DNA of 31,643 nucleotides from a virus. The notes under the pieces are model-generated. The model did no database searches, was not told where the DNA came from, and was given only the letters and a program-made list of their open reading frames with translations. The position numbers were made by a program, and so were the translations under genes. Shown here piece after piece: positions 1,059 to 31,643 of this stretch (position 1 is the first letter of the stretch; each line of letters opens with the position of its first letter). The stretch spans positions 1 through 31,643 of the IMG/VR virus record IMGVR_UViG_3300009164_000028; one strand, 5' to 3'.

Positions 1059-1403
1059 ATGGAAGGTAAAAACGGAGGCACATTAAAACCATTTGAAAAA
1101 GGCGAAAGCGGAAACCCTGCAGGGCGACCTAAAGGAAGTAAAAACCGAAGCACAATAGCAAGGCAATGGCTTGAAGTTAATCAATCATTAAAGAACCCAA
1201 TTACAGGCGAACAGGAAACAATGTCGCAAGAAGATTTAATGACTTTAGCGCTAATTAAAAAAGCAAGGGATGGCGATGTAAACGCTTACAAAGCATTAAT
1301 GGATTCAGGTTATGGTTCCCCGCAACAAACAACTGAAAGTTTAGTTACTGTTAATAACTTTGATTTAAAAGAAGTATTGAAATTTGATAATATTAAACCC
1401 TAA
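1059..1403 (+). CDS. Terminase small subunit-like protein (DUF5681-type)
   Basis: The 114-aa protein opens with a basic segment carrying GNPAGRPKGSKN (residues about 18-29), the signature of DUF5681-like phage proteins usually found directly before the large terminase. The rest is helical and acidic. By position and family it should recognise phage DNA and hand it to the packaging motor, but no classical helix-turn-helix is obvious, so the small-terminase role is inferred from context. The gene follows the methyltransferase by 10 bases and overlaps the start of terL by 20 bases, suggesting translational coupling. No Shine-Dalgarno sequence is seen. Confidence 0.75.
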   Translation: MEGKNGGTLKPFEKGESGNPAGRPKGSKNRSTIARQWLEVNQSLKNPITGEQETMSQEDLMTLALIKKARDGDVNAYKALMDSGYGSPQQTTESLVTVNNFDLKEVLKFDNIKP

Positions 1404-2589
1404 ATACTATCCTTTAGTAAATAACGAAACACGTTACTATATTGTAACGGGTGGGCGTGGATCTTCTAAATCATTCGGGGTTGCATCCTATCTTTGTGGA
1501 TTATCTTTTGAGCCCGATCATAAAATACTTTTTACAAGGCAAACAATGACTTCGGCACATTTGTCAATCATTCCTGAATTTCAAGAAAAGATTGAGCTAA
1601 TGAATGCTGAGCCATTTTTTGAGGTTAACAAAACAGAAATTAAAAATAAAACATCTAACACCGATATTATATTTCGAGGCATTAGAACAAGCTCAGGGGA
1701 TCAAACGGCTAACTTAAAATCGTTGCAAGGTATTACAACCTGGATTGTTGATGAAGCTGAAGAATTAACAGATGAAACAGTCTTTGATAAAATCAATTTA
1801 TCAATTAGGCAAAAGGGCAAACAGAATCGAGTTATATTAATTCTTAACCCTGCAACTAAAGAGCATTGGATATATAAGCGCTTCTTTGAAGATAGGGGCA
1901 TACAAGAAGGATTTAACGGCATTAAAGAAGATGTTACTTATATTCACACTACCTACTTAGATAACATAAATAACCTGGATCAATCTTTTATTAATGAAGT
2001 TGAACGTATCAAAGTAAACAACCCTACAAAATACAAACATCAAATATTAGGTGGGTGGTTAAACAAAGCTGAGGGCGTTGTATTTACTAACTGGCGTATT
2101 GATGAATTTAAAGAAGTAAACAAATCTGTTTACGGACAAGATTTTGGATTTAGTATTGATCCAACAACTTTAATTCAGGTTTCTGTTGACAAAGACCGCA
2201 AACAAATCTATTGCAAAGAACTACTTTATAAAACGGGGTTAACAACTTCACAAATCTACGATGAAAATAATCGGTATTGCGGTGCCTTTAATTTAATTAT
2301 TGCTGATAGTGCTGAGCCCCGTTTAATATCTGAATTACAAAGCAGGGGTTTAAATATAAAGGGTATTAAAAAACCTACAATAATTGAGCGGATTGCTTTA
2401 GTACAAGACTATAAATTAATAATAGATCCTAATTCAACTAACTTAGTTAAGGAACTAAATAACTACGTTTGGCACGATTCTAAAAGCCAAACGCCTATTG
2501 ATGATTATAACCATTTATTAGATGCTTTAGGTTATGCCGTTTGGGATTTAATCGGCAAACCTAATTATGGGCGTTACAATTTTGATTAA
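1384..2589 (+). CDS. terL: Terminase large subunit (packaging ATPase/nuclease)
   Basis: This is the motor that cuts and pumps phage DNA into the prohead. The 401-aa protein resembles the PBSX/Xtm-type large terminases. The ATPase domain has Walker A GGRGSSKS (23-30), Walker B IVDEAEE (about 121-127) and a coupling motif around ILILNPA (151-157). The C-terminal RNase H-like nuclease has acidic residues at GQDFGF (D253), IIADSAEP (D308) and DDYNHLLDALGYA (D380). The frame has no ATG near its beginning; TTG at 1384, three bases after an in-frame boundary, is the best start and overlaps the upstream gene. Its 3' end contains the TTACA half of the first late promoter. Confidence 0.95.
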   Translation: MIILNPKYYPLVNNETRYYIVTGGRGSSKSFGVASYLCGLSFEPDHKILFTRQTMTSAHLSIIPEFQEKIELMNAEPFFEVNKTEIKNKTSNTDIIFRGIRTSSGDQTANLKSLQGITTWIVDEAEELTDETVFDKINLSIRQKGKQNRVILILNPATKEHWIYKRFFEDRGIQEGFNGIKEDVTYIHTTYLDNINNLDQSFINEVERIKVNNPTKYKHQILGGWLNKAEGVVFTNWRIDEFKEVNKSVYGQDFGFSIDPTTLIQVSVDKDRKQIYCKELLYKTGLTTSQIYDENNRYCGAFNLIIADSAEPRLISELQSRGLNIKGIKKPTIIERIALVQDYKLIIDPNSTNLVKELNNYVWHDSKSQTPIDDYNHLLDALGYAVWDLIGKPNYGRYNFD

Positions 2590-2604
2590 TTTCGTTTATA
2601 TATT
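2574..2604 (+). promoter_or_regulatory. Candidate phage late promoter 1
   Basis: TTACA (2574-2578), 14 bases, CGTTTA (2593-2598), then 6 bases to the ATG at 2605. The same two boxes with exactly the same spacings precede the genes at 10761 and 13563. If CGTTTA acts as a -10 box, transcription would start at or next to the A of ATG, giving a leaderless mRNA. It does not match the TAnnTTTG boxes of the early and middle promoters. The upstream half lies inside terL. Confidence 0.75.
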
Positions 2605-10729: not shown

Positions 10730-10760
10730 TTACACTTTTAAATTAATTCGTTTATATAAT
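10730..10760 (+). promoter_or_regulatory. Candidate phage late promoter 2
   Basis: TTACA (10730-10734), 14 bases, CGTTTA (10749-10754), 6 bases, ATG at 10761. Both spacings equal those of late promoters 1 and 3. It begins five bases after the tape-measure stop codon and fills the whole 35-base gap, so it probably gives the protease/capsid genes their own strong transcription. Confidence 0.78.
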
Positions 10761-11891
10761 ATGGATGCAGAAATGGAAACATACAGAGTAAATTTTATTG
10801 AAGGGGAAACTACAGGTGTTTATGGCATTAGTTTAGTAAACGATCCTGCCATGGAATCAATGTTTATTGCTTTGAGTAAAGAAGAACAATTCCAACTTAA
10901 AAGCGTTGATAATGAACAACGAATTGTTTGCGGTGCTGTATTGATTCCTGAGAAACCTATTTATAGAAATCAAAACGGAAGGGAATTTAACATTGTATTT
11001 CCTGCTCAGACTATTAAATTAGCAAGTGAAAACTTTTTTAAAAAGGGTTATCAATCAAGTTCAACTATTGAGCATGATGTTGATAGTAAAATTAAAGGCG
11101 TTACGATTGTTGAAAGTTGGATTAAAACAGATTTAGTAAATGATAAATCTGTAGTGTACGGTATGAATGAACCAATAGGCACATGGTATGCTTCTATGAA
11201 AATAGATAACGATGAAATTTGGAATGATTTTGTCAAAACAGGAAAAGTTAAAGGATTCAGTATTGATGCATTTTTTGACTTAGAACAAGTAAATTTAAAA
11301 ACCGAGAATAATATGATTGAACAAATTGTTGATGCTATTAAAAGTGGCTTTGCATCTTTGAATTTAACAAAGGATGTAAAAGTAAACTTAGGTAGCGTAA
11401 AGTTAGCGGATGGATCAATGGAGTTTAATTTCGATGGTGATACTGTTGCCGTTGGAACTCCTATGACTATGACCGCTCCTGATGGTATGGAGTTGCCAGT
11501 TCCTGATGGCGAGTACACTTTAGAAGGTGGAATGGCTGTTGTAATTGCAAACTCTTTAGTTGCTGAAATTTCAACTGTAGAAGAAGAAACTACAGATGTT
11601 GAAGAAGAAGCTCCGATGAATCCCGCAACTCCTATGAGTGCGCCTGTAGTTAAAAGCGAAAAAACTACAAATGAAATCTTTTATCAGTTATCAAAAGAAG
11701 ATTTTAACGCAATGGTTTTAGAAATTGGAAATCAATTTGAAACTAAACTAAATGCTTTAAGAAACGAGTTTGAAACTAAATTAAGCAATGAAGTTGAAGC
11801 GGTGCAACTTACTAAAACAAAACCTGCAAAAGAAAAAACTTGGGATGAAATGACAAGTTTGGAAAAACACAGAGCATTAAAAAATAACTAA
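10761..11891 (+). CDS. XkdF-like prohead protease/scaffold protein
   Basis: A 376-aa protein directly before the capsid gene. The N-terminal 180 residues match the XkdF-type putative phage serine protease pattern: GVYGISLVNDPAMESMFI (about 20-37), a histidine in the STIEHD segment (about residue 104), and the closing VKGFSIDAFF (about 164-173). The C-terminal half is acidic (TTDVEEEAPM) with a coiled coil (NQFETKLNALRNEFETKL), as expected of a scaffold. It would assemble inside the prohead and process capsid components. Catalytic residues cannot be assigned with certainty. A second in-frame Met at residue 5 is possible, but the ATG at 10761 fits the promoter spacing. Confidence 0.75.
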   Translation: MDAEMETYRVNFIEGETTGVYGISLVNDPAMESMFIALSKEEQFQLKSVDNEQRIVCGAVLIPEKPIYRNQNGREFNIVFPAQTIKLASENFFKKGYQSSSTIEHDVDSKIKGVTIVESWIKTDLVNDKSVVYGMNEPIGTWYASMKIDNDEIWNDFVKTGKVKGFSIDAFFDLEQVNLKTENNMIEQIVDAIKSGFASLNLTKDVKVNLGSVKLADGSMEFNFDGDTVAVGTPMTMTAPDGMELPVPDGEYTLEGGMAVVIANSLVAEISTVEEETTDVEEEAPMNPATPMSAPVVKSEKTTNEIFYQLSKEDFNAMVLEIGNQFETKLNALRNEFETKLSNEVEAVQLTKTKPAKEKTWDEMTSLEKHRALKNN

Positions 11892-13517: not shown

Positions 13518-13550
13518 AAAAGCGCAAAGTGTTACATTTTGCGCTTTTTT
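13518..13550 (+). terminator. Intrinsic terminator overlapping late promoter 3
   Basis: An 11-bp perfect stem (13518-13528 with 13538-13548, core AGCGC/GCGCT), a 9-base loop and a T-tract to 13550. The TTACA box of late promoter 3 lies mainly in the loop, and the promoter spacer is the right arm and T-tract. Confidence 0.85.
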
Positions 13551-13562
13551 CGTTTAATATAT
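13532..13562 (+). promoter_or_regulatory. Candidate phage late promoter 3
   Basis: TTACA (13532-13536), 14 bases, CGTTTA (13551-13556), 6 bases, ATG at 13563. Box sequences and spacings are the same as in late promoters 1 and 2, although the spacer here is taken from a terminator. This element also fixes the portal start at 13563 rather than the upstream TTG at 13539. Confidence 0.78.
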
Positions 13563-19035: not shown

Positions 19036-20298
19036 ATGGCTTTTAGATATGCAGTAGCAAGTGGTAACTGGAGTAATACAGCAACTTGGGATGGTGGTAC
19101 TTTGCCTACAAGTTCAGACGATGTTTTTTCAAATAACTTTACTGTTACTATAAATGGAACTTTTACAGTCTTATCAATTAGAAATACATCAAATGCATCA
19201 GGTCCTACTATTGCAGCTGGTGGACAGTTTATTTTTGCAAATGGTGGTAACTTAACTTGTACTGCTGCTCAAGCTATTTATGTTGGCTCAACTACTGCAA
19301 CTTTAGAAATGAATTTAGCAAGTCCAAATACTGCTACTTTTAATGGTAGTGTATTGACAATGACAAATACTGGAAGTTATAATGCAATTAAGTTATCAAG
19401 TACAGGAACTTTAAATTGTAATGGAAATTATAATAATGATAATGGACAAGGTGGTAGGTCAGTTTTAATTGTAACAGGAAATGGAACTCTTAATATAGTT
19501 GGAGATATATCAAGTAGTTCAGGAGCATCGGCTATTACTTCAACTTGTTTAGTTTTATCTTCTGCTGCAACTATTAACATCACTGGAAATATAACTGGTA
19601 GTTCTTCAACTTTAACAACAACTGGAACTATTGTATCTTCTTCAACTGGGGCAATAAATATTACGGGAAATGTAACAACATCAGCTAATTGTTGTATTTA
19701 TTTAAGTGGTGGTACACCATTAACAGTTATAGGTAATGTTACAGCTGGTTCATTACAACCAAGTATTTTTAATATAACAAATGCCTCAATAATTACAGTT
19801 ACAGGAATACTTACTGCTGGTTCAGTTGCTCCAGCTATATACTCGTCTTTTGCTTTGACAAGTGGATATTCTTCAAGCACTTATGTAAAAGTAAGTGGTA
19901 ATGTTGTGAATACATCTAATAATATGGCTATTGTAGCACCAAGAGTAACAATAGATACAAACACTTCAAGTTGGTTATTTCAGATAAGCACAGGTGGTAA
20001 TAGAACACTTTATGCTGCTGGAGTAGCTTTAGGAAACCCCGCTACAACTAATGTAAGATTTGGGACTAGTTATGGTGCTTCAAGTGAATTAACTGGAACT
20101 TTAAGAGTTCCAAGTGCTGCAAACGTATTAAGTGGCGTTTTAACTGACAATACTACTGGAACATTGTTAATGACACCTGCTCAATTTTGGAACTATTTAA
20201 TTGCAAGTGGATTCACTGCTAATAGTATTGGGGATCGTTTACAAAATGCTTCAACAGTAGCAACAACAGGCGGGCAAATAGCCGCATATACAATATAA
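19036..20298 (+). CDS. Beta-helix tail adhesin with G8-like N-terminus
   Basis: A 420-aa protein. The first 50 residues (SGNWSNTATWDGGTLPTSSD) resemble the N-terminal strand pattern of G8-type domains. The rest is a Ser/Thr/Asn/Gly-rich repetitive beta-helix with recurring ITGN, TSS and GTL units. It most likely forms an elongated fibre or adhesin that binds host surface glycans. No catalytic residues for depolymerase activity can be picked out. The DNA is composed of simple tandem-like coding repeats, a place where variation is expected. Confidence 0.6.
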   Translation: MAFRYAVASGNWSNTATWDGGTLPTSSDDVFSNNFTVTINGTFTVLSIRNTSNASGPTIAAGGQFIFANGGNLTCTAAQAIYVGSTTATLEMNLASPNTATFNGSVLTMTNTGSYNAIKLSSTGTLNCNGNYNNDNGQGGRSVLIVTGNGTLNIVGDISSSSGASAITSTCLVLSSAATINITGNITGSSSTLTTTGTIVSSSTGAINITGNVTTSANCCIYLSGGTPLTVIGNVTAGSLQPSIFNITNASIITVTGILTAGSVAPAIYSSFALTSGYSSSTYVKVSGNVVNTSNNMAIVAPRVTIDTNTSSWLFQISTGGNRTLYAAGVALGNPATTNVRFGTSYGASSELTGTLRVPSAANVLSGVLTDNTTGTLLMTPAQFWNYLIASGFTANSIGDRLQNASTVATTGGQIAAYTI

Positions 20299-22789: not shown

Positions 22790-23308
22790 ATGGAAAATAA
22801 AAACAATTCAATTATCATGGCGTTCATTATTACAATGCTATTCATGCTACTAATGATGTTTAGCAGCTGTAGTATATTCAAACACAAAGAAAAAGTTAAA
22901 ATAGATACAGAAGAAAAAAAAGAAGTAGTTAGTGATACTAAAACAGAAACGCAAACAGATGGATTTAAAACATCATTTACTATTGAACCTATAGATTTAA
23001 CAAAACCTATAACATTTGGTGGTAAAACGTATACAAACACTAAAATAGTGTACATTACTGATAAAACTAAAACAAATGAAAATAAAGTTGAAGCTAAAAA
23101 AGAAGTTGCAGAAGTAAAACAAACTGTAAAGGCAAAGGAATCAATTAAAAAAGTTGAATTTAATATGAACTGGCTAATTTGGATTGTTGTTGTTCTTGGC
23201 TTTGTTTTTATTATTTGCTTTGTAATATTGCTCAGGTTGTATTTAAAAAATGCTACTAAGATTGTAAACCTTGCTGAGAATGTTTCTAACTTAGTTGGCA
23301 AGCTTTAA
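22790..23308 (+). CDS. Candidate unimolecular spanin (u-spanin): lipobox plus C-terminal membrane anchor
   Basis: A 172-aa protein. The N-terminus has a hydrophobic h-region followed by the lipobox FSSC (C27), indicating export and lipidation in the outer membrane. A Lys/Glu-rich periplasmic domain (about 28-125) has a short beta region (KPITFGGKTYTNTKIVYI) and a coiled coil. A strong membrane segment at about 128-148 (WLIWIVVVLGFVFIICFVIL) and a 24-residue tail follow. Lipid at one end and an inner-membrane anchor at the other is the architecture of the phage T1 gp11 u-spanin, which fuses the membranes after endolysin action. No separate Rz/Rz1 pair is present. Its 3' end overlaps the convergent NinG gene by 18 bases. 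Family similarity cannot be tested here. Confidence 0.65.
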   Translation: MENKNNSIIMAFIITMLFMLLMMFSSCSIFKHKEKVKIDTEEKKEVVSDTKTETQTDGFKTSFTIEPIDLTKPITFGGKTYTNTKIVYITDKTKTNENKVEAKKEVAEVKQTVKAKESIKKVEFNMNWLIWIVVVLGFVFIICFVILLRLYLKNATKIVNLAENVSNLVGKL

Positions 23309-23842
23309 ATTCAATCTAATTTCTTTTAAATTATCTAAATCCCAAACTTTGCTATATTGTTTGTCAATACCTGCTAATTTAACTAAATCATAATACCGAT
23401 CCTGACCTATTCGATTTGGTAAATTTAATGCATAGTTATCAAAATTGCCTTCTAAAAATAGGTTGCATTTTCTACATTGCCCATGAATGTTATCTAAGTT
23501 AAATTTTAATGTATTAAAAGAATTTGCTGAGTAAAAATGCCCCGCTTGGAATGTATCATTCCATTCAGCACCGCAACTAATACAATTTTTATGTTGATCT
23601 CTTTTGCGTATATATGCGTGAATTTGCATTTTAGTATTGATTAGAGACGCTTTTAACTTCTTTTGGTATGTATCTATACTTTTTAATTTTTCGTAGCTTA
23701 AAACGTCTTTAATTGCTTTTTCTTCAACTTTGATTTTAGAATATGCAATAGCGCAATCAGTTGAACAAACTTTTACAAGTGAGTTGTATTGATTAAATGC
23801 TTTATTACATTGAATGCAATTCTTTGTTTTTGGCTGTTTCAT
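23291..23842 (-). CDS. ninG: NinG/Rap-like recombination protein
   Basis: A 183-aa protein, last of the leftward operon. It has an N-terminal zinc finger (C9, C12, C26, C30) and the NinG core CISCGAEWNDTFQAGHFYSA, then C123 and C126 with nearby histidines. Lambda NinG (Rap) acts in recombination, binding branched DNA and stimulating exchange by the phage annealing system; here an ERF-type annealing protein is encoded on the same strand. It overlaps the upstream gene by 4 bases (ATGA). Confidence 0.85.
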   Translation of the reverse strand: MKQPKTKNCIQCNKAFNQYNSLVKVCSTDCAIAYSKIKVEEKAIKDVLSYEKLKSIDTYQKKLKASLINTKMQIHAYIRKRDQHKNCISCGAEWNDTFQAGHFYSANSFNTLKFNLDNIHGQCRKCNLFLEGNFDNYALNLPNRIGQDRYYDLVKLAGIDKQYSKVWDLDNLKEIRLNLKLAN

Positions 23843-24183
23843 CTTGAATGATTACGCTCATTTTTTAAAAACGATATATTTGTACGGATAGCATCGCTAA
23901 CCCTGTATGCTGAATCCATTATTCTACGCAATAAATAAAGCTCAGGAATTTCAACTTCGGCAAAATTAACAGCTCGATTTACTGCTAACTTTTTATCAGT
24001 TGTTAATTCATATATTTTAATTTCGTAAAGTTGCTTATACTTTGCCCTTTCGGATTCCAAATAAAACAAAATAGTATTTATCTTTTGTAATAAATAATTC
24101 AGCTGCTCGCCATCGTTTAAACTTACGCTGTTATATACTTCGATATAAGATGTTAGTTCTTTAAGTTGTTGTTCAAATTTCAT
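23839..24183 (-). CDS. Coiled-coil protein of the replication operon
   Basis: A 114-aa largely helical protein (MKFEQQLKELTSYIEVYNSV). It is charged, without Cys clusters or membrane segments, and predicted to form coiled coils. It sits between the helicase-like ATPase and NinG with close spacing on both sides, so a replication or recombination accessory role is likely. No family is recognised. Confidence 0.5.
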   Translation of the reverse strand: MKFEQQLKELTSYIEVYNSVSLNDGEQLNYLLQKINTILFYLESERAKYKQLYEIKIYELTTDKKLAVNRAVNFAEVEIPELYLLRRIMDSAYRVSDAIRTNISFLKNERNHSR

Positions 24184-24184
24184 A

Positions 24185-25030
24185 TTAAAACCAATTATTT
24201 TTTTTAATCCCGTTTATTTCAGTTACAAATGGAAGCCAGTCTTTGTTAATATCTATTGCAAAATTATCAAATGGCAAATTACGGCTATATTCACATTTGG
24301 CTAATGTTAAATTATTTTCATTTTCAACAAATAAAACTGTTTCCGCTTTTTTTAAAATTGAACTACCTACATGCCCTACAGGTTTTGAGGTGCCAAAATT
24401 CTTATGCAATATCCCTGTTAAATGGCATTTTGTTATCGATGTCCAATTTAATAACTTTTCAGTTAATTGTGTTGATTGTTCTAAAGAATTAAAATCAGTA
24501 ATTAAATCTACAAAGCCATCTATTGAAACCAATCCTAAATTATTACGATACTCAGATTCTAACATAACCCATTCTATAAATTGAAACCTAACAAGCGGAT
24601 CGTATTGCCTAAGCGAATAACTTTTGTAATATTCGTAATTAGATCCAACCATTTCTAAAACCCGCTTTGTAACTCTTTGCGTATGGTATTGTGATTGTTC
24701 TGTATCAAAACTAATTACAAATTTATCCTGATTGTTATGCCCTTTGATATGGGTATATTTATTAGCATCCCCGCCAATGTAACCCGCTTCAATCATAGAT
24801 TTAACAAAAGTTTTTCGTGACTTAGAAGCTCCAACTATGCAACTAAAATCGCCATAACTCCCAAACGGGATAGGGTACATTTCATTTTTATATTGTGATT
24901 CGCCTATTGAAATTGCAATCGGCTGCCTTTGTATTTCTTTTGCAGGGTTAATATAGCATTCTAATTCTATTTTTTTAAAATCTAATTTATCTTCTAACGG
25001 ATCATCCTGAATAATAATTTTATCAAACAT
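24185..25030 (-). CDS. RecA-fold helicase-like ATPase (RepA/AAA_25 type)
   Basis: A 281-aa P-loop protein. It has Walker A GASKSRKT (67-74), a FVISFDTEQSQYHTQRV segment (104-120) typical of hexameric RepA/DnaB-like and AAA_25 ATPases, Walker B LGLVSIDGFVDLI (165-177), and the sensor segment GILHKNFGTSKPVGHVGSSI (206-225). It most likely unwinds or loads at the phage origin after the initiator encoded two genes upstream. It lacks a DnaB N-terminal domain. The gene has an ATG in an AT-rich context and overlaps the previous gene by 8 bases. Confidence 0.8.
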   Translation of the reverse strand: MFDKIIIQDDPLEDKLDFKKIELECYINPAKEIQRQPIAISIGESQYKNEMYPIPFGSYGDFSCIVGASKSRKTFVKSMIEAGYIGGDANKYTHIKGHNNQDKFVISFDTEQSQYHTQRVTKRVLEMVGSNYEYYKSYSLRQYDPLVRFQFIEWVMLESEYRNNLGLVSIDGFVDLITDFNSLEQSTQLTEKLLNWTSITKCHLTGILHKNFGTSKPVGHVGSSILKKAETVLFVENENNLTLAKCEYSRNLPFDNFAIDINKDWLPFVTEINGIKKNNWF

Positions 25031-25526
25031 TTTTGTAGTTATTTAAGTTTAAACTTATGATCCAATTTAGTTGCATTTCAATTTCATCTGAATCCATAAT
25101 TCCCTTTGCGTATAATTCCCAATCTTTATGCTTTGTAACTTCTTTGTTAACATTTTCTTCAGCTGCATTGTAACAAGCTGGGTGTTTATTAAAGTCTAAT
25201 CCTTCAGAAATTAAGAAGTTATTAAATGCATAGGTATTAAATCTATTTTTAAAATCCAAATATAAGTTATCTATTGGTTTATTTAATGTTTGGCTAATTG
25301 CTTTTTGTGAAGCATCAACATCGTTGTTTAAACAGGTTAAATAATCGGTTAGCATCTTAACATATAATTTTGCAAACAATTCATTTTGATTAACTTCTTT
25401 TTTTACTGAGTTGTTTATATAATCTAAAATCAAATTAAAGGCATCAGCATCATTTTTGTTTGGTGTGAATTGTTTAGTTTGGCTAAATCGCCATTGCATT
25501 CTTTGTATTGCATCTTTTAATTTCAT
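25023..25526 (-). CDS. Replication-operon protein of unknown function
   Basis: A 167-aa helical acidic protein (MKLKDAIQRMQWRFSQTKQF), between the initiator-like and helicase-like genes and overlapping both by 4-8 bases. The position is where helicase loaders or primase-associated proteins are often encoded, but I see no P-loop or zinc site. The function is unknown; a loader/accessory role is an inference from context. Confidence 0.5.
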   Translation of the reverse strand: MKLKDAIQRMQWRFSQTKQFTPNKNDADAFNLILDYINNSVKKEVNQNELFAKLYVKMLTDYLTCLNNDVDASQKAISQTLNKPIDNLYLDFKNRFNTYAFNNFLISEGLDFNKHPACYNAAEENVNKEVTKHKDWELYAKGIMDSDEIEMQLNWIISLNLNNYKNV

Positions 25527-26182
25527 AACCTATCCTGTTTTATTTGTGGTTTAACATTAAATAAATTTTCTCGTTTTGCCCAAGTTTCTAATCTACGATC
25601 TAAGCTCCAAGTTTTTTCTAATTCAAAACGCATTTTAGATTTGCTTTGATTTGGTTCGGTCCAATAGTTATAAAATTCCTTTAGCATATTAACCTGATGT
25701 TTATTTTTATATTCTAATAAACTATCTTTAAAAATTTGGGAGCGTGCTTCTAAGCTATTTATCTTATCTTCTTTTATCTTATCTTCTCTTATGGCATCGT
25801 TTTCGCATTGCGGATTTGATGCGGTCGCATTGCGCTCGCATTCATCCTTTAGTTTACGGCGCTTTTCCCAACCTTCTTTTGCATTTTTTGAGTTTTGTTT
25901 ACTAGTATCTTCAAATTCATTTAGTTGTTCTGATAAGAATTTTATAAAAATATTACTATCTAAAACTTCAATTATTTTCTCATCGCAAAGCGAATTTAAT
26001 GCGGTCGCATTGCCAGCGCATAACTTTTGAATAGCAAGTTTTAAAGGCACATCCCCAAGTCTTGACCAATACATTGAACATAAGTCAATAAACAACCCTT
26101 TATCTTCACGAGAAAGCATTTGTATATTACCATTTTCCCATTGGTTAGGTTCAAATTTAAAGTATGGAAGTTCTTTAGCCAT
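25523..26182 (-). CDS. Replication initiator-like protein (DUF1376/DnaD-like)
   Basis: From the ATG at 26182 (MAKELPYFKFEPNQWENGNI) the protein is 219 aa. The first 110 residues (WENGNIQMLSREDKGLFIDL) are a winged-helix domain of the DUF1376/phage O-like type. A linker holds REDKIKEDKI repeats, and the C-terminus has a DnaD-like helical part. Such proteins bind the origin and recruit the helicase. Two Cys-x2-NATA-x-N-x2-Cys segments (in the domain and the linker) are encoded by GC-rich direct repeats that may be the origin itself. The upstream extension from 26236 is rejected because it overlaps the previous gene by 62 bases. Confidence 0.72.
   Translation of the reverse strand: MAKELPYFKFEPNQWENGNIQMLSREDKGLFIDLCSMYWSRLGDVPLKLAIQKLCAGNATALNSLCDEKIIEVLDSNIFIKFLSEQLNEFEDTSKQNSKNAKEGWEKRRKLKDECERNATASNPQCENDAIREDKIKEDKINSLEARSQIFKDSLLEYKNKHQVNMLKEFYNYWTEPNQSKSKMRFELEKTWSLDRRLETWAKRENLFNVKPQIKQDRL
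25755..26020. other. Candidate replication origin inside the initiator gene
   Basis: Two repeat units of about 40 bases lie at about 25802-25843 and 25982-26023. Each contains the identical 15-mer ATGCGGTCGCATTGC (25819-25833; 25999-26013), itself holding the inverted repeat ATGCG-GT-CGCAT, and a further CGCAT. They are GC-rich islands in AT-rich DNA. About 10-50 bases before the first unit, TTATCTTATCTTC-type 13-mers occur in tandem (about 25759-25790), a plausible unwinding element. The arrangement resembles lambda ori inside gene O. Confidence 0.5.
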
Positions 26183-26414
26183 TAGAAACCTCACCTTCTG
26201 TAATTTTGTTAATTTCAGTTCGCAAGGTTTTTGCAAATTTAATTGCTGTAGATTTATCTAATCTAATAAACATATCAGATTTTTCTTTATTCCAATCTCC
26301 TATACTGATATAAATTACATCTTCATTTTTAGTATAGAGTTCAATAGTTTGTTTATGTACTTCAATAAAATGAAATCCATATGCATCAATAAATTTTAAT
26401 TCAAATTTTGCCAT
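26175..26414 (-). CDS. First gene of the replication block, unknown
   Basis: A 79-aa protein (MAKFELKFIDAYGFHFIEVH) with alternating strands and a C-terminal helix rich in Lys/Glu. No motif is recognised. It is the first gene after the structured leader at 26454-26543 and overlaps the initiator gene by 8 bases, so it is co-translated with it. Confidence 0.55.
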   Translation of the reverse strand: MAKFELKFIDAYGFHFIEVHKQTIELYTKNEDVIYISIGDWNKEKSDMFIRLDKSTAIKFAKTLRTEINKITEGEVSNG

Positions 26415-26453
26415 TATAATAAAGGTTTTAAGATACCTATAAACTATTAAATT

Positions 26454-26543
26454 AAAAAAAGCTTTTCAACGCTTTCGGGGTGCATCCCTACTAACGCTAA
26501 AAAGCTATTAATGTTTTTACTTATTTGAATTATGCACAATTCT
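26454..26543 (-). ncRNA. Kissing-loop leader RNA B (replication block)
   Basis: Read on the minus strand from the expected start near 26543. Hairpin 1 (26542-26527) is GAATT-GTGCAT-AATTC. The block AAAAACATTAATAG follows (ending 26505). Hairpin 2 (26506-26460) has an outer stem AGCTTTT/AAAAGCT, a short inner stem and apical GGG-ATGCAC-CCC, followed by seven T (26460-26454). The 6-nt loops GTGCAT and ATGCAC are exact reverse complements. The same layout with different loops occurs in leader A at 28080-28166. The U-tract means hairpin 2 could terminate transcription. The leader fills most of the 196-base gap before the gene at 26414. Confidence 0.75.
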
Positions 26544-26547
26544 TTAG

Positions 26548-26577
26548 CAAATATACAAATTATTTTATTAAATCAAA
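26548..26577 (-). promoter_or_regulatory. Host-type promoter for the replication block
   Basis: On the minus strand, TTTG (26577-26574), 18 bases, TATATTTG (26555-26548), matching the Bacteroidota -33/-7 pattern. The expected start, about 12 bases from the first T of the -7 box, is 26543, immediately before hairpin 1 of leader B. Confidence 0.7.
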
Positions 26578-26610
26578 TGTTTTAATTAATAATTTTAAAT
26601 TTGTTTTTTC

Positions 26611-26940
26611 TCAGAAAGGCAAAATATTATGATTGTCAATAACTTCAATAACTTTAGCATCATGCACCGGCATATCATTAACACCTTTGTTAATTTTCCA
26701 ACCCTGAGCGTTTAAATAATACCTGCCGTTGTATTCAGATCCCCTTAAGTTGATGCCAACAGTAACTGCATCCCCTATTTTAAAAGAATCTAATAAAAAT
26801 GTTTTATCCTTAACAAAGTCAATAGGCAAATCTTGAGGATATTGCTCATTCGTTGTTACTACTAATAGTCTTTTTGTAAAGCCATTAGTTCCTACTTCTT
26901 CGGTTTGCCCGATTAATTTAACTGATCCTGTAATTTCCAT
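26611..26940 (-). CDS. SSB-like OB-fold protein (DUF3127)
   Basis: A 109-aa protein with the DUF3127 pattern: MEITGSVKLIGQTEEVGTNG, then TKRLLVVTTNEQYPQDLPID, VKDKTFLLDSFKIGDAVTV, and NLRGSEYNGRYYLNAQGWKI. This OB-fold family serves as a phage/Bacteroidota single-strand DNA-binding protein. It is the last gene of the recombination block, next to the ERF annealing gene, fitting a role in replication-linked recombination. The C-terminus is acidic and short (VIEVIDNHNILPF), with a final Phe as in many SSBs. Confidence 0.82.
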   Translation of the reverse strand: MEITGSVKLIGQTEEVGTNGFTKRLLVVTTNEQYPQDLPIDFVKDKTFLLDSFKIGDAVTVGINLRGSEYNGRYYLNAQGWKINKGVNDMPVHDAKVIEVIDNHNILPF

Positions 26941-26944
26941 AATA

Positions 26945-27391
26945 TTAAAATTTAATTGTTATCGATGATTTTCTTGGCGTTGTTGAAACTTTTGGCACAT
27001 CGTTACCATAAGCATCAATTATAGTTTGTTTTTGTGCAAGCTTAAGTAATTCAACCCTTGCATCTAAATCGGCTTTTAAAGTAGCGTATATTTCATCATC
27101 AGCATAGTTAATTGTATTGCCACCATCAACAGGGTTAAATTCAACCCCGTTAATAGTTACTTTTTCACATGGCAATAAATTTCGCATTTCACTTTCGGCA
27201 GCATCAATTACATTTTTTAGACGTACAAGTGTAGTCATAAATTCATGCTTACCTACTAAGCCATTTTCAATTACATTATCAACCATTCGTTTGCCTGTTA
27301 ATATAGCTTCTTTTTTTGTAAAAGTTGAATCGTACATTTGTAGCATTTCATCTTCTTTTAATTGTAAAAATATATTTCCTGATTGTCCCAT
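26945..27391 (-). CDS. Recombination-block protein of unknown function
   Basis: A 148-aa protein (MGQSGNIFLQLKEDEMLQMY). The C-terminal half carries EIYATLKADLDARVELLKLA and a basic end. Proteins of this layout are common beside phage SSB and annealing genes but have no assigned function that I can name. It starts with a TAATG overlap on the ERF gene and ends four bases before the SSB-like gene. Confidence 0.55.
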   Translation of the reverse strand: MGQSGNIFLQLKEDEMLQMYDSTFTKKEAILTGKRMVDNVIENGLVGKHEFMTTLVRLKNVIDAAESEMRNLLPCEKVTINGVEFNPVDGGNTINYADDEIYATLKADLDARVELLKLAQKQTIIDAYGNDVPKVSTTPRKSSITIKF

Positions 27392-27897
27392 TATGATAGT
27401 TTTGATTTAAGTTCAACAGTTAATGCAGTTATTTCTTTTGAAGGGTTGCTTATAGATTTAAACACTTTTGAAAGTTCATCTATAGTTTTGCAAGCTTTTA
27501 ATTTTGCGATGTTAATATCACCTGGAGCGCTTGCTTTATTGCCATCATCATCATCAGCGCCAACGCAAACAAATGATTGAAGCCCGTATCTTCTTGCATA
27601 AGTTATCCCTGATCCCTGAGCTTGCGCATCATTTAATTTGTTATATACTATTTCGGTAAAACTTTCAAGCATTTCGCCTGATTCGTGCATTAAAATTGTG
27701 CTTACAAAGTTCTTACCTTCAATATTTTTAATCGGCTGTAATACAACAATTCCATTATTGTTAAGTATTGGTATAACCGCTTCCCGAACTGCGTTTAAAT
27801 CAGCGTATTTTGATTTAAAAAATGGGTTAGTTGCATCCTTCTTTGGATTGCTCATTTCTGTTTGTGCTTTTAATAAAGCTGTAGCGATATTTTTCAT
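27391..27897 (-). CDS. erf: ERF-family single-strand annealing protein
   Basis: From the ATG at 27897 (MKNIATALLKAQTEM) the protein is 168 aa. It has the ERF signatures NPFFKSKYADLNAVREAV (24-41) and DAQAQGSGITYARRYGL (90-106), followed by an acidic DDDD stretch. ERF proteins (P22 Erf) anneal complementary single strands in phage recombination and genome circularisation. The longer frame from 27921 is rejected because it overlaps the upstream gene; the chosen ATG lies one base after that gene's stop (TAAGATG). Confidence 0.9.
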   Translation of the reverse strand: MKNIATALLKAQTEMSNPKKDATNPFFKSKYADLNAVREAVIPILNNNGIVVLQPIKNIEGKNFVSTILMHESGEMLESFTEIVYNKLNDAQAQGSGITYARRYGLQSFVCVGADDDDGNKASAPGDINIAKLKACKTIDELSKVFKSISNPSKEITALTVELKSKLS

Positions 27898-27898
27898 C

Positions 27899-28069
27899 TT
27901 AATAAATGTTTTTAAATTCAATTACTTTACTGTCAAATTTTTCAAAGCATTCTTTTGGAGTTAATCCGCTCCAATAAAGCTCAAATTTGTAAACTTGATA
28001 ACCTGTTTTTTTGCTATGGAATGTATATCCCATTGTTTCCCTGCAAAATTCTAAAAATGTATTTTTCAT
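27899..28069 (-). CDS. Small protein, first gene of the recombination block
   Basis: A 56-aa protein starting MKNTFLEFCRETMGYTFHSK, with an aromatic-rich centre (GYQVYKFELYWSGLTPKECF). It begins 10 bases after the U-tract of leader A and ends one base before the ERF start, so it is the first gene under leader A control. Placement and composition support a real gene; no family is recognised. Confidence 0.65.
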   Translation of the reverse strand: MKNTFLEFCRETMGYTFHSKKTGYQVYKFELYWSGLTPKECFEKFDSKVIEFKNIY

Positions 28070-28079
28070 ATTGTTAAAT

Positions 28080-28166
28080 AAAAAATCCCTGACTTAAATC
28101 CTGTAGGTCAGTACAGGCAAAGTCAGGAACTATTAATGTTTTTTTAAATATCCTGACCGATATTGT
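28080..28166 (-). ncRNA. Kissing-loop leader RNA A (recombination block)
   Basis: Minus strand. Hairpin 1 (28164-28147) is AATATC-GGTCAG-GATATT. The block AAAAACATTAATAG ends at 28130. Hairpin 2 has an outer stem CCTGACTT/AAGTCAGG (28127-28120 with 28095-28088), a 2x4 internal loop, an inner stem CCTGTA/TACAGG and apical loop CTGACC (28111-28106). Six T follow (28085-28080). Loops GGTCAG and CTGACC are exact reverse complements. GTCAGGA of hairpin 1 can also pair with TCCTGAC of the hairpin 2 outer stem, so a terminator/antiterminator switch is possible. Leader B has the same plan with other sequences. Confidence 0.8.
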
Positions 28167-28170
28167 TAAG

Positions 28171-28201
28171 CAAATATAATACTTATTTTTTAATATCCAA
28201 A
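28171..28201 (-). promoter_or_regulatory. Host-type promoter for the recombination block
   Basis: Minus strand TTTG (28201-28198), 19 bases, TATATTTG (28178-28171). It overlaps the 3' end of the gene at 28183. The predicted start near 28166 is two bases before hairpin 1 of leader A. Confidence 0.72.
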
Positions 28202-28434
28202 TTTATTTTTGATTCTACTATTAAATAACCATTATTATTTTGCCATTCATCTACTATACGATCTAATTGCGCTTTGTTAAATCCTAATTTATAGGCAACG
28301 GCACCAACTGAAACGCCATAACTAAATATAAAATATAATTCAAGCGCTATAATTTTTGATGGCTTATAATTAAATCTTTGATCGTAACCACTTTTTAAGC
28401 GCATATAGTTAGCAGCTCTTTCTTTTGCATTCAT
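28183..28434 (-). CDS. Small helical protein with HTH-like segment, last early gene
   Basis: An 83-aa protein with a basic N-terminus (MNAKERAANYMRLKSGYDQR) and a segment SVGAVAYKLGFNKAQLDRIV that resembles a helix-turn-helix of the AsnC/CRP kind. It could bind DNA and control the middle promoters; its 3' end contains the -33 region of the recombination promoter. The HTH is suggestive only. It overlaps the upstream gene by 4 bases (ATGA). Confidence 0.5.
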   Translation of the reverse strand: MNAKERAANYMRLKSGYDQRFNYKPSKIIALELYFIFSYGVSVGAVAYKLGFNKAQLDRIVDEWQNNNGYLIVESKINLDIKK

Positions 28435-28703
28435 ATTTTAAATATTTCTTCTTCAGAAACTACTTTATATTCACTCATTAAATTTTTATCTATTTCTTTA
28501 ATACATTTAAAAAAAATAAATAAATCCGCAAACTCATCATAATCTAATTTATGCCCATTTAAAATAAAGTTATTGCCAGTATCTACAATTCTATGAATAA
28601 ATTTTTTATTTTCATATAACTGATATACTGTTGAATTATTATCAACTTGTTCATAAGTAAATGTATATTCTAAATCCTCGTTATATATTTTAATTGTTTT
28701 CAT
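28431..28703 (-). CDS. Early protein of unknown function
   Basis: A 90-aa acidic protein (MKTIKIYNEDLEYTFTYEQV), with strand-rich first half and helical second half. No motif is recognised. It is linked to both neighbours by ATGA overlaps, showing it is translated as part of the early operon. Confidence 0.55.
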   Translation of the reverse strand: MKTIKIYNEDLEYTFTYEQVDNNSTVYQLYENKKFIHRIVDTGNNFILNGHKLDYDEFADLFIFFKCIKEIDKNLMSEYKVVSEEEIFKI

Positions 28704-28792
28704 AATTTTCCTTTATTTATTAAATAATACCATAACCAAATTAACTTTGATCTTAAAAATTCGTATGCAAATAATATTAATATGTACTTCAT
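28700..28792 (-). CDS. 30-aa membrane-like peptide
   Basis: MKYILILFAYEFLRSKLIWL and ten more residues form a hydrophobic/aromatic peptide with a basic end. It is supported by ATGA overlaps with the genes on both sides. It may insert into the membrane; function is unknown. Confidence 0.55.
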   Translation of the reverse strand: MKYILILFAYEFLRSKLIWLWYYLINKGKL

Positions 28793-28977
28793 GACATTTG
28801 TGGGGGTTGATTATATATATCTTCTTCTGTTTTAATATGTTCTTTTATAGTTTCAATATCCCAACCGTAACTTAATAACATACCTTGTAATGCTTTTGTA
28901 ATTTGCTCCATACTTACATCTACATTAGTAAATTCAGTTGTGTAAGTTTCAAATTTTGTTTGTATTATAATTTTCAT
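28789..28977 (-). CDS. Early protein of unknown function
   Basis: A 62-aa acidic protein (MKIIIQTKFETYTTEFTNVD), alpha/beta pattern, followed by EDIYNQPPQMS. It is in the early overlapping cluster, with 4-base overlaps to both neighbours. No family is recognised. Confidence 0.55.
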   Translation of the reverse strand: MKIIIQTKFETYTTEFTNVDVSMEQITKALQGMLLSYGWDIETIKEHIKTEEDIYNQPPQMS

Positions 28978-29216
28978 AGCTTTAGAAATTTTAAAAATTC
29001 TATTCGTTCATATAATGCTAAAATCCCTGAATCAATATCCCTGTTGAATTTAAATTTGTAGTTATGTAAGTTCTTTACAGCCGTTGGATTTGATTTAAAA
29101 CTTCTTTGTGGCGTATTGGGTTGCTTAATAAAGTGATCTACGTTATAACCGCTTAAATCAATTCCATTTTTAGCCATCCATTTATATTCTTTTTTTAGTT
29201 CTTTAATTGTTTTCAT
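28974..29216 (-). CDS. Early basic protein of unknown function
   Basis: An 80-aa basic protein starting MKTIKELKKEYKWMAKNGID. It is rich in Lys, Asn and Phe. It is translationally coupled to the 39-aa gene before it (ATGA). No motif is recognised; a DNA- or protein-binding role is only suggested by charge. Confidence 0.55.
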   Translation of the reverse strand: MKTIKELKKEYKWMAKNGIDLSGYNVDHFIKQPNTPQRSFKSNPTAVKNLHNYKFKFNRDIDSGILALYERIEFLKFLKL

Positions 29217-29332
29217 AAGTTTAAATAAATTAAGATTCCGATTATTGAAATTGATAGGATAAATACAAGGGCTTTTAACCCGCTGATAAATTCATCTTGA
29301 ATAAATTGCTTTTGTTCTTTAGATAGTTTCAT
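29213..29332 (-). CDS. 39-aa single-pass membrane peptide
   Basis: MKLSKEQKQFIQDEFISGLK is followed by a hydrophobic helix (ALVFILSISIIGILIYLNL) reaching the C-terminus. It has a charged N-terminus in the cytoplasm and one membrane segment. ATG follows the upstream stop by one base; the stop overlaps the next ATG. It could be an early membrane-acting protein such as a superinfection-exclusion factor, but this is speculation. Confidence 0.6.
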   Translation of the reverse strand: MKLSKEQKQFIQDEFISGLKALVFILSISIIGILIYLNL

Positions 29333-29333
29333 A

Positions 29334-29675
29334 TTAATAAAAATTAGATCGTTTAACTCCAAAATATTCGTGCAAATCTTCTATGCCTTCATCCGTTAAA
29401 TCATCTTCTAAGCATTCATCTTGCAAATCGCTAACAGCTTTTATTAATTTAGTTTGCATTAGCTCAGTTTGCATATCAGTTGGATAGTATTGACGCCATT
29501 TTTTATTAATTGACAATCCAAAATCTTCAACAACTAACTTATAATTATTTTCTTTAAGACCGTAAAAGCTAACTTTGTAATTTTCATACTCAGATTCTAA
29601 CCCAACAGTTAATAAATCTTTGCCAGTATATAACTTAACATTAGTTATAAGATGATCTATAATTCTATTTTCCAT
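29334..29675 (-). CDS. Early protein of unknown function
   Basis: A 113-aa acidic protein (MENRIIDHLITNVKLYTGKD) with a C-terminal Asp/Glu-rich helix (DDLTDEGIEDLHEYFGVK). It overlaps the 52-aa gene by 19 bases. The strong negative charge is common in phage proteins that mimic DNA or bind host enzymes, but no family is recognised. Confidence 0.55.
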   Translation of the reverse strand: MENRIIDHLITNVKLYTGKDLLTVGLESEYENYKVSFYGLKENNYKLVVEDFGLSINKKWRQYYPTDMQTELMQTKLIKAVSDLQDECLEDDLTDEGIEDLHEYFGVKRSNFY

Positions 29676-29815
29676 AAGTAGGGCTTTTTTTTATCGTTTA
29701 TAAATTCAATTATTTCTATTTTAGTTGCTGAAGGAACTATCATTCTAATTTCAGCGGTTAGCACATCAGGTTTAAACAATCGTTTTCGACCTGCATTTCT
29801 AATGTTTTTTTTCAT
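29657..29815 (-). CDS. Small basic protein, possible ribbon-helix-helix type
   Basis: A 52-aa protein: basic N-terminus (MKKNIRNAGRKRLFKPDVLT), then a strand and helix (AEIRMIVPSATKIEIIEFIN). The basic arm followed by a short strand and an amphipathic helix recalls ribbon-helix-helix DNA-binding proteins, though the second helix is short. Start overlaps the upstream stop by one base (TAATG). It may regulate early transcription. Confidence 0.55.
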   Translation of the reverse strand: MKKNIRNAGRKRLFKPDVLTAEIRMIVPSATKIEIIEFINDKKKPYLWKIEL

Positions 29816-29898
29816 TATCTTAAAAATTGAAGAGTTATGTATAAAATTACTACTATTATAAAAGTATATTGATTGCGGGGTTTTAAAAATGTTTTCAT
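29815..29898 (-). CDS. 27-aa membrane peptide
   Basis: MKTFLKPRNQ followed by a hydrophobic helix (YTFIIVVILYITLQFLR). It starts two bases after the stop of the upstream gene and overlaps the next start (TAATG). Small size makes coding uncertain, but the tight coupling and a clean hydrophobic segment favour it. Confidence 0.5.
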   Translation of the reverse strand: MKTFLKPRNQYTFIIVVILYITLQFLR

Positions 29899-29900
29899 AA

Positions 29901-30131
29901 TTAAATGCTTAAAACGATTTGTAAATTAGCTTTTTTAAATTCAATCATATCAACACGAGTATCATCGTATAAAATATAAGCTCGTTTAAACCCTAAAGCT
30001 GTAATTTGTTCTAATAATTCAGTATTGAAATCACCTATCATTCTAACTGTTGAATGATTAATTGAAATGTTAAAGAATGAATCTAAGTTTAAACCTGATT
30101 CTAATAATTCTAATGTTAAATCTTTTTTCAT
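29901..30131 (-). CDS. Early protein of unknown function
   Basis: A 76-aa protein starting MKKDLTLELLESGLNLDSFF, with alternating hydrophobic and charged residues consistent with a small alpha/beta fold. It is second in the early operon. The 58-base gap before it has no recognised promoter. No family is recognised. Confidence 0.55.
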   Translation of the reverse strand: MKKDLTLELLESGLNLDSFFNISINHSTVRMIGDFNTELLEQITALGFKRAYILYDDTRVDMIEFKKANLQIVLSI

Positions 30132-30189
30132 AATATTTGTTTTAATTATTAATGCAGTTTATAGTATGCTGCTCCACTTTGTTTTTTTA

Positions 30190-30342
30190 TTATAATCCTA
30201 ATGCTTTTTCTATTCCTTTTATAACTATTGTTCTTGAATCATTTTCATTATAACCAACGCTCATTAATTTATTCATCGCATCAGTATAAATTTTTGTAAA
30301 TTCTAATTCTGTAAATCCTGTAACTTTTAAAATTGCTTCCAT
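30190..30342 (-). CDS. First gene of the leftward early operon
   Basis: A 50-aa protein (MEAILKVTGFTELEFTKIYT) with two likely helices and basic C-terminus. It is the first gene behind the leftward promoter at 30374-30403, with an A/C-rich leader of about 25 bases. Immediate-early position suggests a role in host takeover or control, but no family is recognised. Confidence 0.6.
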   Translation of the reverse strand: MEAILKVTGFTELEFTKIYTDAMNKLMSVGYNENDSRTIVIKGIEKALGL

Positions 30343-30373: not shown

Positions 30374-30403
30374 CAAATATACGCCAATAAATTAATTAAA
30401 CAA
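30374..30403 (-). promoter_or_regulatory. Leftward early promoter (host-type)
   Basis: Minus strand TTG (30403-30401), 19 bases, TATATTTG (30381-30374). A strong match to the Bacteroidota promoter. Expected start is near 30369, giving a leader of about 27 bases to the ATG at 30342. It is divergent from the rightward promoter. Confidence 0.75.
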
Positions 30404-30427: not shown

Positions 30428-30461
30428 TTTAACATATCCATATTTATTATTTATAACTTTG
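30428..30461 (+). promoter_or_regulatory. Rightward early promoter (host-type), probably leaderless
   Basis: TAACTTTG (30454-30461) is a perfect -7 box; a TTTAACA segment (30428-30434) takes the -33 position. The -7 box begins 12 bases before the ATG at 30466, so transcription would start at or next to the start codon. TTAACATA occurs twice 11 bases apart (30418-30425 and 30429-30436), one helical turn, and may be an operator. Confidence 0.7.
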
Positions 30462-30465
30462 TAGA

Positions 30466-30690
30466 ATGATTGCACGATTATTGATATATGGCGATGATGA
30501 AGAAGATACAGATTATGTAGACTTTCACTTTGTTGCTATGGATATACAAGCGGGCTACAGATCAAAGGATGGATTTCACTATTGCATAGTAATAGGCGGC
30601 TCAATATACGAACTTGTTTACAGCATAGGTTTACAAATGGAATGTGAACGTGTGATTAAATTTAAAGATGGATATAATAATTTGCTTTAA
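30466..30690 (+). CDS. First gene of the rightward early operon, unknown
   Basis: A 74-aa acidic protein (MIARLLIYGDDEEDTDYVDF) with GFHYCIVIGGSIYELVYSIG in the middle. It is translated directly before the sigma-like factor with no gap (its stop abuts that ATG), so it may be a partner, for example an anti-sigma or activator, but this is speculation. No family is recognised. Confidence 0.55.
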   Translation: MIARLLIYGDDEEDTDYVDFHFVAMDIQAGYRSKDGFHYCIVIGGSIYELVYSIGLQMECERVIKFKDGYNNLL

Positions 30691-31179
30691 ATGTTAGAAA
30701 TATTAGCTAAAAACAATAGTCTTTGGCTTAAAATGGCATACGATATATCTAAAGATAGGGACACTGCTAAAGATATGGTGCAGGATATGTACTTAAAACT
30801 GCATAAAATTGACAAAGAAATTAATAATAGCTATGTTTACTTTACTTTAAAGTCACTTTACAACGATTCAAAGAAGCAAAAAACGATTAAAAATAGAATT
30901 GATTGCGTTGATTTTAACGATTTTGACTTCAATTTAATAGCTGAATTGTTAGATTGGGATCAACTAAACAGCATTAACGACTTTTACGAAAGGTTAAATA
31001 TAGAATTTGACAACTTAAGAAGCCATGAACAAATAATAATTTACCATTCAACTGACGATGGCTTAAGAAAATTTAGTCGGGATAGTGGTATATCAATAAG
31101 AACTATAACACAATGCAAACTAAAACTAAAAGAAAAGCTAAAGGACTCGGGGATATTGTTGAATCAATTACCGAAGTAA
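30691..31179 (+). CDS. Sigma-70-like (ECF-type) RNA polymerase sigma factor
   Basis: A 162-aa protein with two sigma-like regions. Region 2 contains LWLKMAYDISKDRDTAKDMV and QDMYLKLHK (about 11-40), then aromatic and Lys residues (NNSYVYFTLKSLYNDSKKQK) as in region 2.3/2.4. Region 4 is a helix-turn-helix (RKFSRDSGISIRTITQCKLK, about 126-145). Size and two-domain layout match ECF-type factors. It would redirect host RNA polymerase; the three TTACA-N14-CGTTTA elements before late genes are the likely targets. Lying upstream of the methyltransferase and terminase genes, it is under the early promoter at 30454, giving an early-to-late cascade. Confidence 0.78.
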   Translation: MLEILAKNNSLWLKMAYDISKDRDTAKDMVQDMYLKLHKIDKEINNSYVYFTLKSLYNDSKKQKTIKNRIDCVDFNDFDFNLIAELLDWDQLNSINDFYERLNIEFDNLRSHEQIIIYHSTDDGLRKFSRDSGISIRTITQCKLKLKEKLKDSGILLNQLPK

Positions 31180-31412
31180 TCCAAATTAAGAAGTGCAAAG
31201 AATGTGAGAATAGAAAGCAATGGCTTAACGTACATTTTCCATTTAACAGACCTACAGTATTAACTGAAGCACAAAAAGAACTAATTGAAAGCAACCCGCT
31301 GCAAGTTTATAACGAGGCGTTTAATGCTGATGTTACAGATGAAAGCTTTAACGGCGGGGTTAAAAAAGCTATATTAAAAAAGTTAAACAAATTAGCTGAA
31401 TATGATAGTTAA
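31113..31412 (+). CDS. Cys-motif small protein upstream of the methyltransferase
   Basis: A 99-aa protein. A single CKECENRKQWLN motif (about 28-39) near a basic N-terminus resembles small phage proteins found before terminase genes, perhaps metal-binding dimers. It overlaps the sigma-like gene by 67 bases and the methyltransferase start by 11. Coding-like sequence over the overlap supports it. Function is unknown. Confidence 0.6.
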   Translation: MQTKTKRKAKGLGDIVESITEVIQIKKCKECENRKQWLNVHFPFNRPTVLTEAQKELIESNPLQVYNEAFNADVTDESFNGGVKKAILKKLNKLAEYDS

Positions 31413-31643
31413 AATATCTGAAATAAAAAGCAACCCGAACAACCCTCGTTTAATTAAAGATGATAAATTTAAAAAATTAGTTAAATCAATACAGGAGTTT
31501 CCTGAAATGCTAAAGCTAAGACCTATTGTTGTTAATAATGAAATGATAGTTTTGGGAGGTAACATGCGATTAAAAGCATGTAAAGAAGCAGGGTTAAAAG
31601 AAGTTTATATTTTAAAAGCTGATGATTTAACAGTTGAACAACA
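31402..31643 (+). CDS. ParB-like nuclease domain of the ParB-methyltransferase (5' part)
   Basis: The true start is ATG at 31402 (MIVKISEIKSNPNNPRLIKD). The frame runs off the window end and joins base 1 in the same frame, where the ParB domain and the methyltransferase continue to 1048 (388 aa in all). The NPNNPR motif with KKLVKSIQEF is the usual ParB/Srx N-terminal signature. Confidence 0.92.
   Translation, partial: MIVKISEIKSNPNNPRLIKDDKFKKLVKSIQEFPEMLKLRPIVVNNEMIVLGGNMRLKACKEAGLKEVYILKADDLTVEQ
31521..31643. repeat. Terminal direct repeat, right copy
   Basis: Exact repeat of bases 1-123. See the left copy: the reading frame across the junction is continuous, which supports a circular map of 31,520 bp. 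Confidence 0.95.

Follow-up and report, generated by a model that had tools for sequence, protein, structure and literature searches.

The open reading frame at 30691-31179 encodes what is, as judged from family profiles and a structure model, a phage-encoded two-domain sigma factor of the ECF type. The best overall explanation, and one that we hold with high confidence, is that this protein would be made early and, together with the host core polymerase, would read about three late promoters. The window, that is, the whole stretch of 31,643 nucleotides that was analysed, belongs to a 31-kb phage of Bacteroidota-type bacteria.

The genome and the sigma operon

Positions 1-123 of the window are repeated exactly at 31521-31643. 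Given this 123-bp repeat at its ends, the record probably covers the whole phage genome, of about 31.5 kb and 31% GC, either circularly closed or terminally redundant. Its terminase large subunit (TerL) has 60% identity to the TerL of the Nonlabens phages P12024L/S (Inhavirus). The leftward genes at 23291-30342, among which Pfam recognizes ERF, a DUF3127 protein and NinG, look early. The rightward arm begins at 30466, has the sigma gene as its second gene, and runs past the end of the record to TerL and then to the virion genes; between the sigma gene and TerL lie a ParB-methyltransferase-like gene, a label read off the sequence and not taken from a database search, and then a small gene. The sigma gene thus lies in the early rightward operon, where the preliminary description had placed it, with the addition that TerL is in the sigma operon too, upstream of the first late promoter. 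The features of this region are:

30466..30690, + strand: open reading frame of 74 aa, first gene of the sigma operon
30691..31179, + strand: ECF-like sigma factor gene, 162 aa (P0001), recognized by profile, structure model and syntenic homologue
Residues ~1-72, ~73-88 and ~89-157 of the latter: sigma2 domain, linker and sigma4 domain
1384..2589, + strand: terminase large subunit (TerL), downstream of the sigma gene and upstream of late promoter 1

Group 4 ECF sigma factors consist of sigma2 and sigma4 only, without sigma1.1 or sigma3, in about 150-200 aa. The layout of the 162-aa protein is the same, and the homology extends across both domains in the family profile, the single sequence alone not settling the question: Pfam finds Sigma70_r2 at E=0.15 only, a PDB sequence search with P0001 alone returns chance matches, none of them credible, and a PHROG search gives the sigma family phrog_1740 at E=9e-5. 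An iterated profile search retrieves 62 homologous open reading frames in the loci of relatives, mostly 1-3 kb upstream of TerL. Among the 45 aligned members of this family, 28 match Sigma70_r2 in Pfam at E<=0.01 (best 2e-8) and 31 match PHROG 31712; the PHROG sigma families matched are phrog_1740, 1190 and 351. Compared with the PDB, the 45-member profile reaches SigL at 1.9e-8 (positions 2-139) and SigW at 1.1e-6, with both domains covered. PHROG 31712, listed as "unknown function", would be better described as a sigma factor.

The AlphaFold2 model has a mean pLDDT of 84 and a pTM of 0.43. Since the linker is uncertain, the whole-model Foldseek scores are modest: ECF sigmas rank best, with 9m9e_F at E 5.7e-4. 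VIA-align brings the model onto ECF sigmas with Z up to 10.1; superposed separately, region 2 fits 5uxx at 2.2 A across 72 residues and region 4 fits SigL 3hug at 2.9 A across 71 residues. Middling Z values for helical domains are no proof by themselves, and become convincing when joined with the sequence profile. The features of regions 2 and 4 noticed in the preliminary description are thus borne out, by the family profile and by the separate superpositions.

ECF sigma genes frequently, though not universally, have an anti-sigma factor as neighbour. For the neighbours at 30466-30690 and 31113-31412, Pfam and PHROGs gave no anti-sigma match, and for the 74-aa reading frame they gave no match of any kind. 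When genome_contigs were scanned for host or prophage copies of the sigma, a single loose peptide pattern came up, and no confirmed relative.

Candidate late promoter elements

The bipartite motif TTACA-N14-CGTTTA occurs exactly three times in the window, where shuffles predict 0.05 occurrences. In each copy, the CGTTTA box begins 12 nt upstream of the ATG that opens a late (virion) operon:

2574..2598, + strand: late promoter 1, TTACA-N14-CGTTTA, before the post-TerL gene (ATG 2605); predicted transcription start 2605
10730..10754, + strand: late promoter 2, TTACA-N14-CGTTTA, upstream of the gene for the head maturation protease (ATG and predicted transcription start both 10761)
13532..13556, + strand: late promoter 3, TTACA-N14-CGTTTA, upstream of the gene for the portal (ATG and predicted transcription start both 13563)
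13518..13548, + strand: intrinsic terminator hairpin inside late promoter 3 (-15.1 kcal/mol, z -4.7, 0/200 shuffles as stable)

The gene at 10761 is a head maturation protease by its PHROG matches, and the gene at 13563 is a portal homologue whose counterpart in P12024L is annotated as portal. A CGTTTA box had been proposed as the mark of the late promoters: the CGT-type late element is real, but it is made of two boxes, not one. CGTTTA alone is too common to be a signal (35 occurrences in the window for 18 expected) and was rejected; the late motif with three mismatches allowed shows no excess over shuffles. The fixed spacing of 12 nt to the ATG was absent from the preliminary description.

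The -35 box of late promoter 3 lies within the loop and stem of the terminator hairpin, whose T-run touches the -10 box. Such nesting is found elsewhere in G012, with a different stem, and, by eye, in G002; as a general feature it was rejected, being limited to window-type phages and these two, with z < -2 in 5 of 59 elements.

In relatives, equivalents of late promoters 1 and 2 are found at the same position, and the third element stands before the portal gene or before a gene of ~95-110 aa that ends just upstream of it. The -10 boxes at these positions, before orthologous genes, differ from the window's: CGTTAT, TGTTAT, CATTAT, CGTATA, AGTATT and others. Because the boxes diverge, the window's exact motif fails in other relatives: as their signal it was discarded, since at these genes it is present only in near-identical phages. 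P12024L has seven elements, each with a AAAACAAA-like box and CGTTAA or CGTTAT, and all seven -10 boxes begin 11-12 nt before the starts annotated by the depositors (179, 3031, 5412, 22090, 24771, 26011 and 27612). No first element could be recognized in G032. The boxes are of the kind found in ECF promoters, which have an AAC-type -35 box and a CGT-type -10 box about 16 nt apart: CGT occurs in most genomes and AAC in many, the window itself having TTAC at a spacing of 15 nt, while some relatives have AGT, CAT or CGTATA as -10 variants. From these sequences we infer that the ECF-like late promoters would belong to the sigma protein described above.

Sigma gene and elements across relatives

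A family profile search finds the sigma gene in 32 of 40 whole records. Two of the eight others, G011 and G038, end near TerL; the remaining six were counted as sigma-less, namely G013, G017, G019 and G027, of 38-41 kb, and the fragments G021 and G028, the sigma gene of G028 possibly lying off the contig. With a rigid pattern, at least one correctly placed element is found in 20 of 29 carriers and in none of the six sigma-less records (Fisher p=0.003), and most of the carriers that score zero have variant boxes or spacings. The preliminary description had called for this comparison, and had named the presence of the motif in phages lacking the gene as a refutation: elements stand at 12 nt in sigma carriers, and the contrary case was looked for and found in 0 of the 6 sigma-less relatives.

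A single sigma-less clade, with no independent loss, was rejected as an account of these absences: the TerL tree requires at least four changes, and G021 is sister to the carrier G023. The six sigma-less relatives also have none of the capsid, portal and post-TerL genes of the window, and carry a different structural gene module, so that the co-occurrence partly reflects the inheritance of whole modules. In five loci that are sigma-less or incomplete (L048, L051, L065, L067 and L068, with upstream sequence too short to score the sigma gene in L048 and L065), the post-TerL gene has a host-type TAnnTTTG box instead.

G021 and G023 (loci L051 and L053) are close relatives by TerL, the sigma gene being absent from the first and present in the second; here it seems that the structural module was swapped together with its regulation, as one unit.

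The sequences of the elements carry further information. The elements of two unrelated genes, post-TerL and protease, resemble each other more closely in the same genome than across genomes (p=5e-5 when TerL is clustered at 95% into 25 groups), and this agreement persists with 13 TerL clusters at 80% (p=8e-4). All three elements read GAGCCA/CATTAT in G022, whereas in its relative G020 they read GATACA/CGTTAT; the sigmas of G020 and G022 have 75% identity, and one of the places where they differ is where the recognition helix of region 4 starts (SPTTV and GRGTV). In partial Mantel tests on 33 phages, the distance between elements correlates with that between sigmas when TerL is controlled for (r=0.33, p=2e-4), and with TerL distance when sigma is controlled for (r 0.23, p=0.01). 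When sigma residues were compared with the first base of the -10 box, no single column predicted the box cleanly. It is because boxes agree within a phage, and because their divergence tracks the sigma beyond TerL, that the sigma would be the protein that reads the late elements. This role, proposed in the preliminary description, is supported at the level of sequence by co-occurrence, by within-genome agreement and by covariation beyond phylogeny.

The same data bear on two other explanations. The late elements could be read by an ECF sigma of the host, the phage protein being a modulator or having some other role: F. psychrophilum encodes seven ECF sigmas, and CGT-type ECF promoters are known from it (PMC9723704). 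We consider this improbable, since boxes that differ among phages, agree within each phage and follow the phage sigma beyond TerL are hard to reconcile with a reader supplied by the host, as is the fact that the elements are missing from sigma-less relatives. The elements could also be operators for some different phage regulator that came along with the structural module, next to a sigma that is merely a co-inherited neighbour, as the joint presence or absence of sigma, elements and module would allow; that element divergence tracks the sigma beyond TerL relatedness, and that the elements have the boxes and spacing of ECF promoters, with a CGT -10 box and a T-rich spacer, makes this very improbable. 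Reading by the phage sigma is the explanation that we retain.

Phasing and the leaderless prediction

One generic pattern, A[AC]A-N11-14-[CT]GTT[AT][AT], was applied to carriers and sigma-less relatives. In the 29 sigma-carrying genomes, 51 of its sites are separated from a called gene start by exactly 12 nt, and the 54 other distances between 6 and 60 nt share 66 sites in total, about 1.2 each, with a maximum of 5. These carriers include G011, whose contig ends before the position of the sigma gene and whose relative L032 has the gene. The six sigma-less relatives have zero generic-pattern sites at 12 nt, and the overall density of the pattern is 1.03 per kb in carriers versus 1.01 in sigma-less genomes. 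The pattern was composed after seeing the elements, so that the site count is not independent of them; the phasing was not built in.

Such an exact spacing to the ATG might suggest a signal for the initiation of translation, Kozak-like or of some other RNA type, instead of a promoter, and Bacteroidota, without Shine-Dalgarno sites, do rely on nucleotides around the initiation codon (PMC6847099), yet this too has a very low probability: there are two boxes extending to about -31, only about three elements per genome, which stand where operons begin and are missing from internal genes, that of the capsid for example, and both boxes shift together, in step with the sigma.

As promoters, the elements can be placed relative to known transcription starts. 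Host sigma-A boxes occupy positions -12 to -5 relative to the first transcribed base (PMC9723704), and in phage 7-11 the promoter element and the transcript start are 6-9 nt apart (PMC8948821). Both comparisons suggest that, with a -10 box spanning -12 to -7 relative to the ATG, transcription would start at, or a few bases from, the A of this codon. The fixed spacing thus predicts that the late mRNAs would be leaderless. Leaderless mRNAs amount to 5.5% in F. psychrophilum (PMC9723704), and 87% of F. johnsoniae leaders are longer than 10 nt (PMC6847099). We think it likely that an entire group of small phages of Bacteroidota has a co-diversifying ECF sigma, promoters fused to start codons and leaderless mRNAs for the first gene of each late operon, in hosts that have few such mRNAs.

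Probable early control of the sigma gene

Two host-type boxes lie just before the start of the rightward arm:

30454..30461, + strand: TAACTTTG, a host-type -7 box and exact TAnnTTTG, just ahead of the first gene of the sigma operon (ATG 30466)
30374..30381, - strand: TATATTTG, a host-type -7 box belonging to the early operon that diverges leftward

The sigma operon had been said to be driven by a perfect host-type promoter. The -7 box is exact, but a TTTG -33 box is missing at the usual spacing, and no clear -33 box was found at this operon head; the -33 motif is weak in F. johnsoniae (PMC6847099). TAnnTTTG occurs 85 times in the window. Early control of the sigma by a host-type promoter is nevertheless supported by sequence comparison, because TAnnTTTG is enriched at the heads of the sigma operons of relatives: it is present within 110 bp in 15 of 24, for a background of 10% (p=5e-10). 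In G020 and G022, a TATATTTG box stands immediately before the sigma gene.

The TAACTTTG box of the sigma operon likewise sits at -12 from the start codon. In the 29 sigma-carrying genomes, TAnnTTTG sites form a minor peak 12-13 nt upstream of gene starts (7 and 3 sites), hinting that early mRNAs may be leaderless too. A 20-bp sequence, TTACGTT[AG]TT[AG]TATTAGTTT, lies directly upstream of TAnnTTTG-like boxes in the records behind L050, L051 and L052: at 7793, 18131 and 24588 in G020, at 7328 and 14446 in G021, and at 19877 in G022. Two of these sites are at the sigma gene and one, in the sigma-less G021, is before the post-TerL gene; this sequence is possibly the site of an activator or repressor of early promoters.

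A proposed early-to-late switch

In the proposed mechanism, the sigma would be made early from the host-type TAnnTTTG promoter, would bind the host core RNA polymerase, and would direct it to about three ECF-like late promoters (seven in P12024L). These putative promoters, whose two boxes are separated by about 15-17 nt and whose -10 box spans -12 to -7 relative to the start codon, would head the virion operons, for tail, head and portal; transcription starting at the A of the ATG would then yield leaderless late mRNA.

If this is true, Inhavirus-like phages have a defined early-to-late switch, PHROG 31712 receives a function, and dozens of natural sigma-promoter pairs become available to work out ECF promoter recognition. 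There would also be leaderless late mRNAs in flavobacterial hosts that have few, and the cultured P12024L allows a direct test.

Comparison with known systems

A close likeness is with the Inhavirus phages P12024L/S, whose gp35/gp33 is a syntenic homologue upstream of TerL, with seven matching elements in P12024L. P12024L differs in being a cultured phage and in its boxes, AAAACAAA and CGTTAA(T). Its gp35 is annotated only as containing Sigma-70 region 2, and no function for it is reported in the literature searched. That phage sigmas read late promoters is already known from phiEco32 and 7-11; the sigma family, the promoter set and the start-codon-locked geometry of this different, small-genome group of phages appear undescribed in the papers searched.

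With bacterial ECF sigmas (SigL, SigW, SigE, SigH), the window's protein shares the sigma2-sigma4 layout, the size, a CGT -10 box, as in Flavobacterium ECF promoters (PMC9723704), and an upstream box of AAC/ACA type. It differs from them in having no recognised anti-sigma neighbour, and its role would be that of a lytic timing switch, not of a stress response.

Escherichia phage phiEco32 also encodes a sigma, phi32_gp36, for middle and late genes (cited in PMC8948821). Contrary to the window's system, it uses a single-element promoter, tAATGTAtA, has no recognisable region 4, and relies on a helper, gp79. The late sigma of Salmonella phage 7-11, SaPh711_gp47, does have region 4, and together with the host core polymerase reads bipartite late promoters, GTAAtg-16-aCTA, as shown in vitro; these keep conserved genome positions while their sequences diverge, and the early genes depend on the host primary sigma (PMC8948821). 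Phage 7-11 is a phiEco32-like enterobacterial podophage with a larger genome and other boxes, for which no start-codon lock is reported. The likeness with 7-11 gp47 and phiEco32 gp36 is one of principle, the sigma proteins being set side by side by description: as in 7-11, and by computation only, a phage sigma is accompanied by bipartite candidate cognate promoters that precede the late operons at conserved positions.
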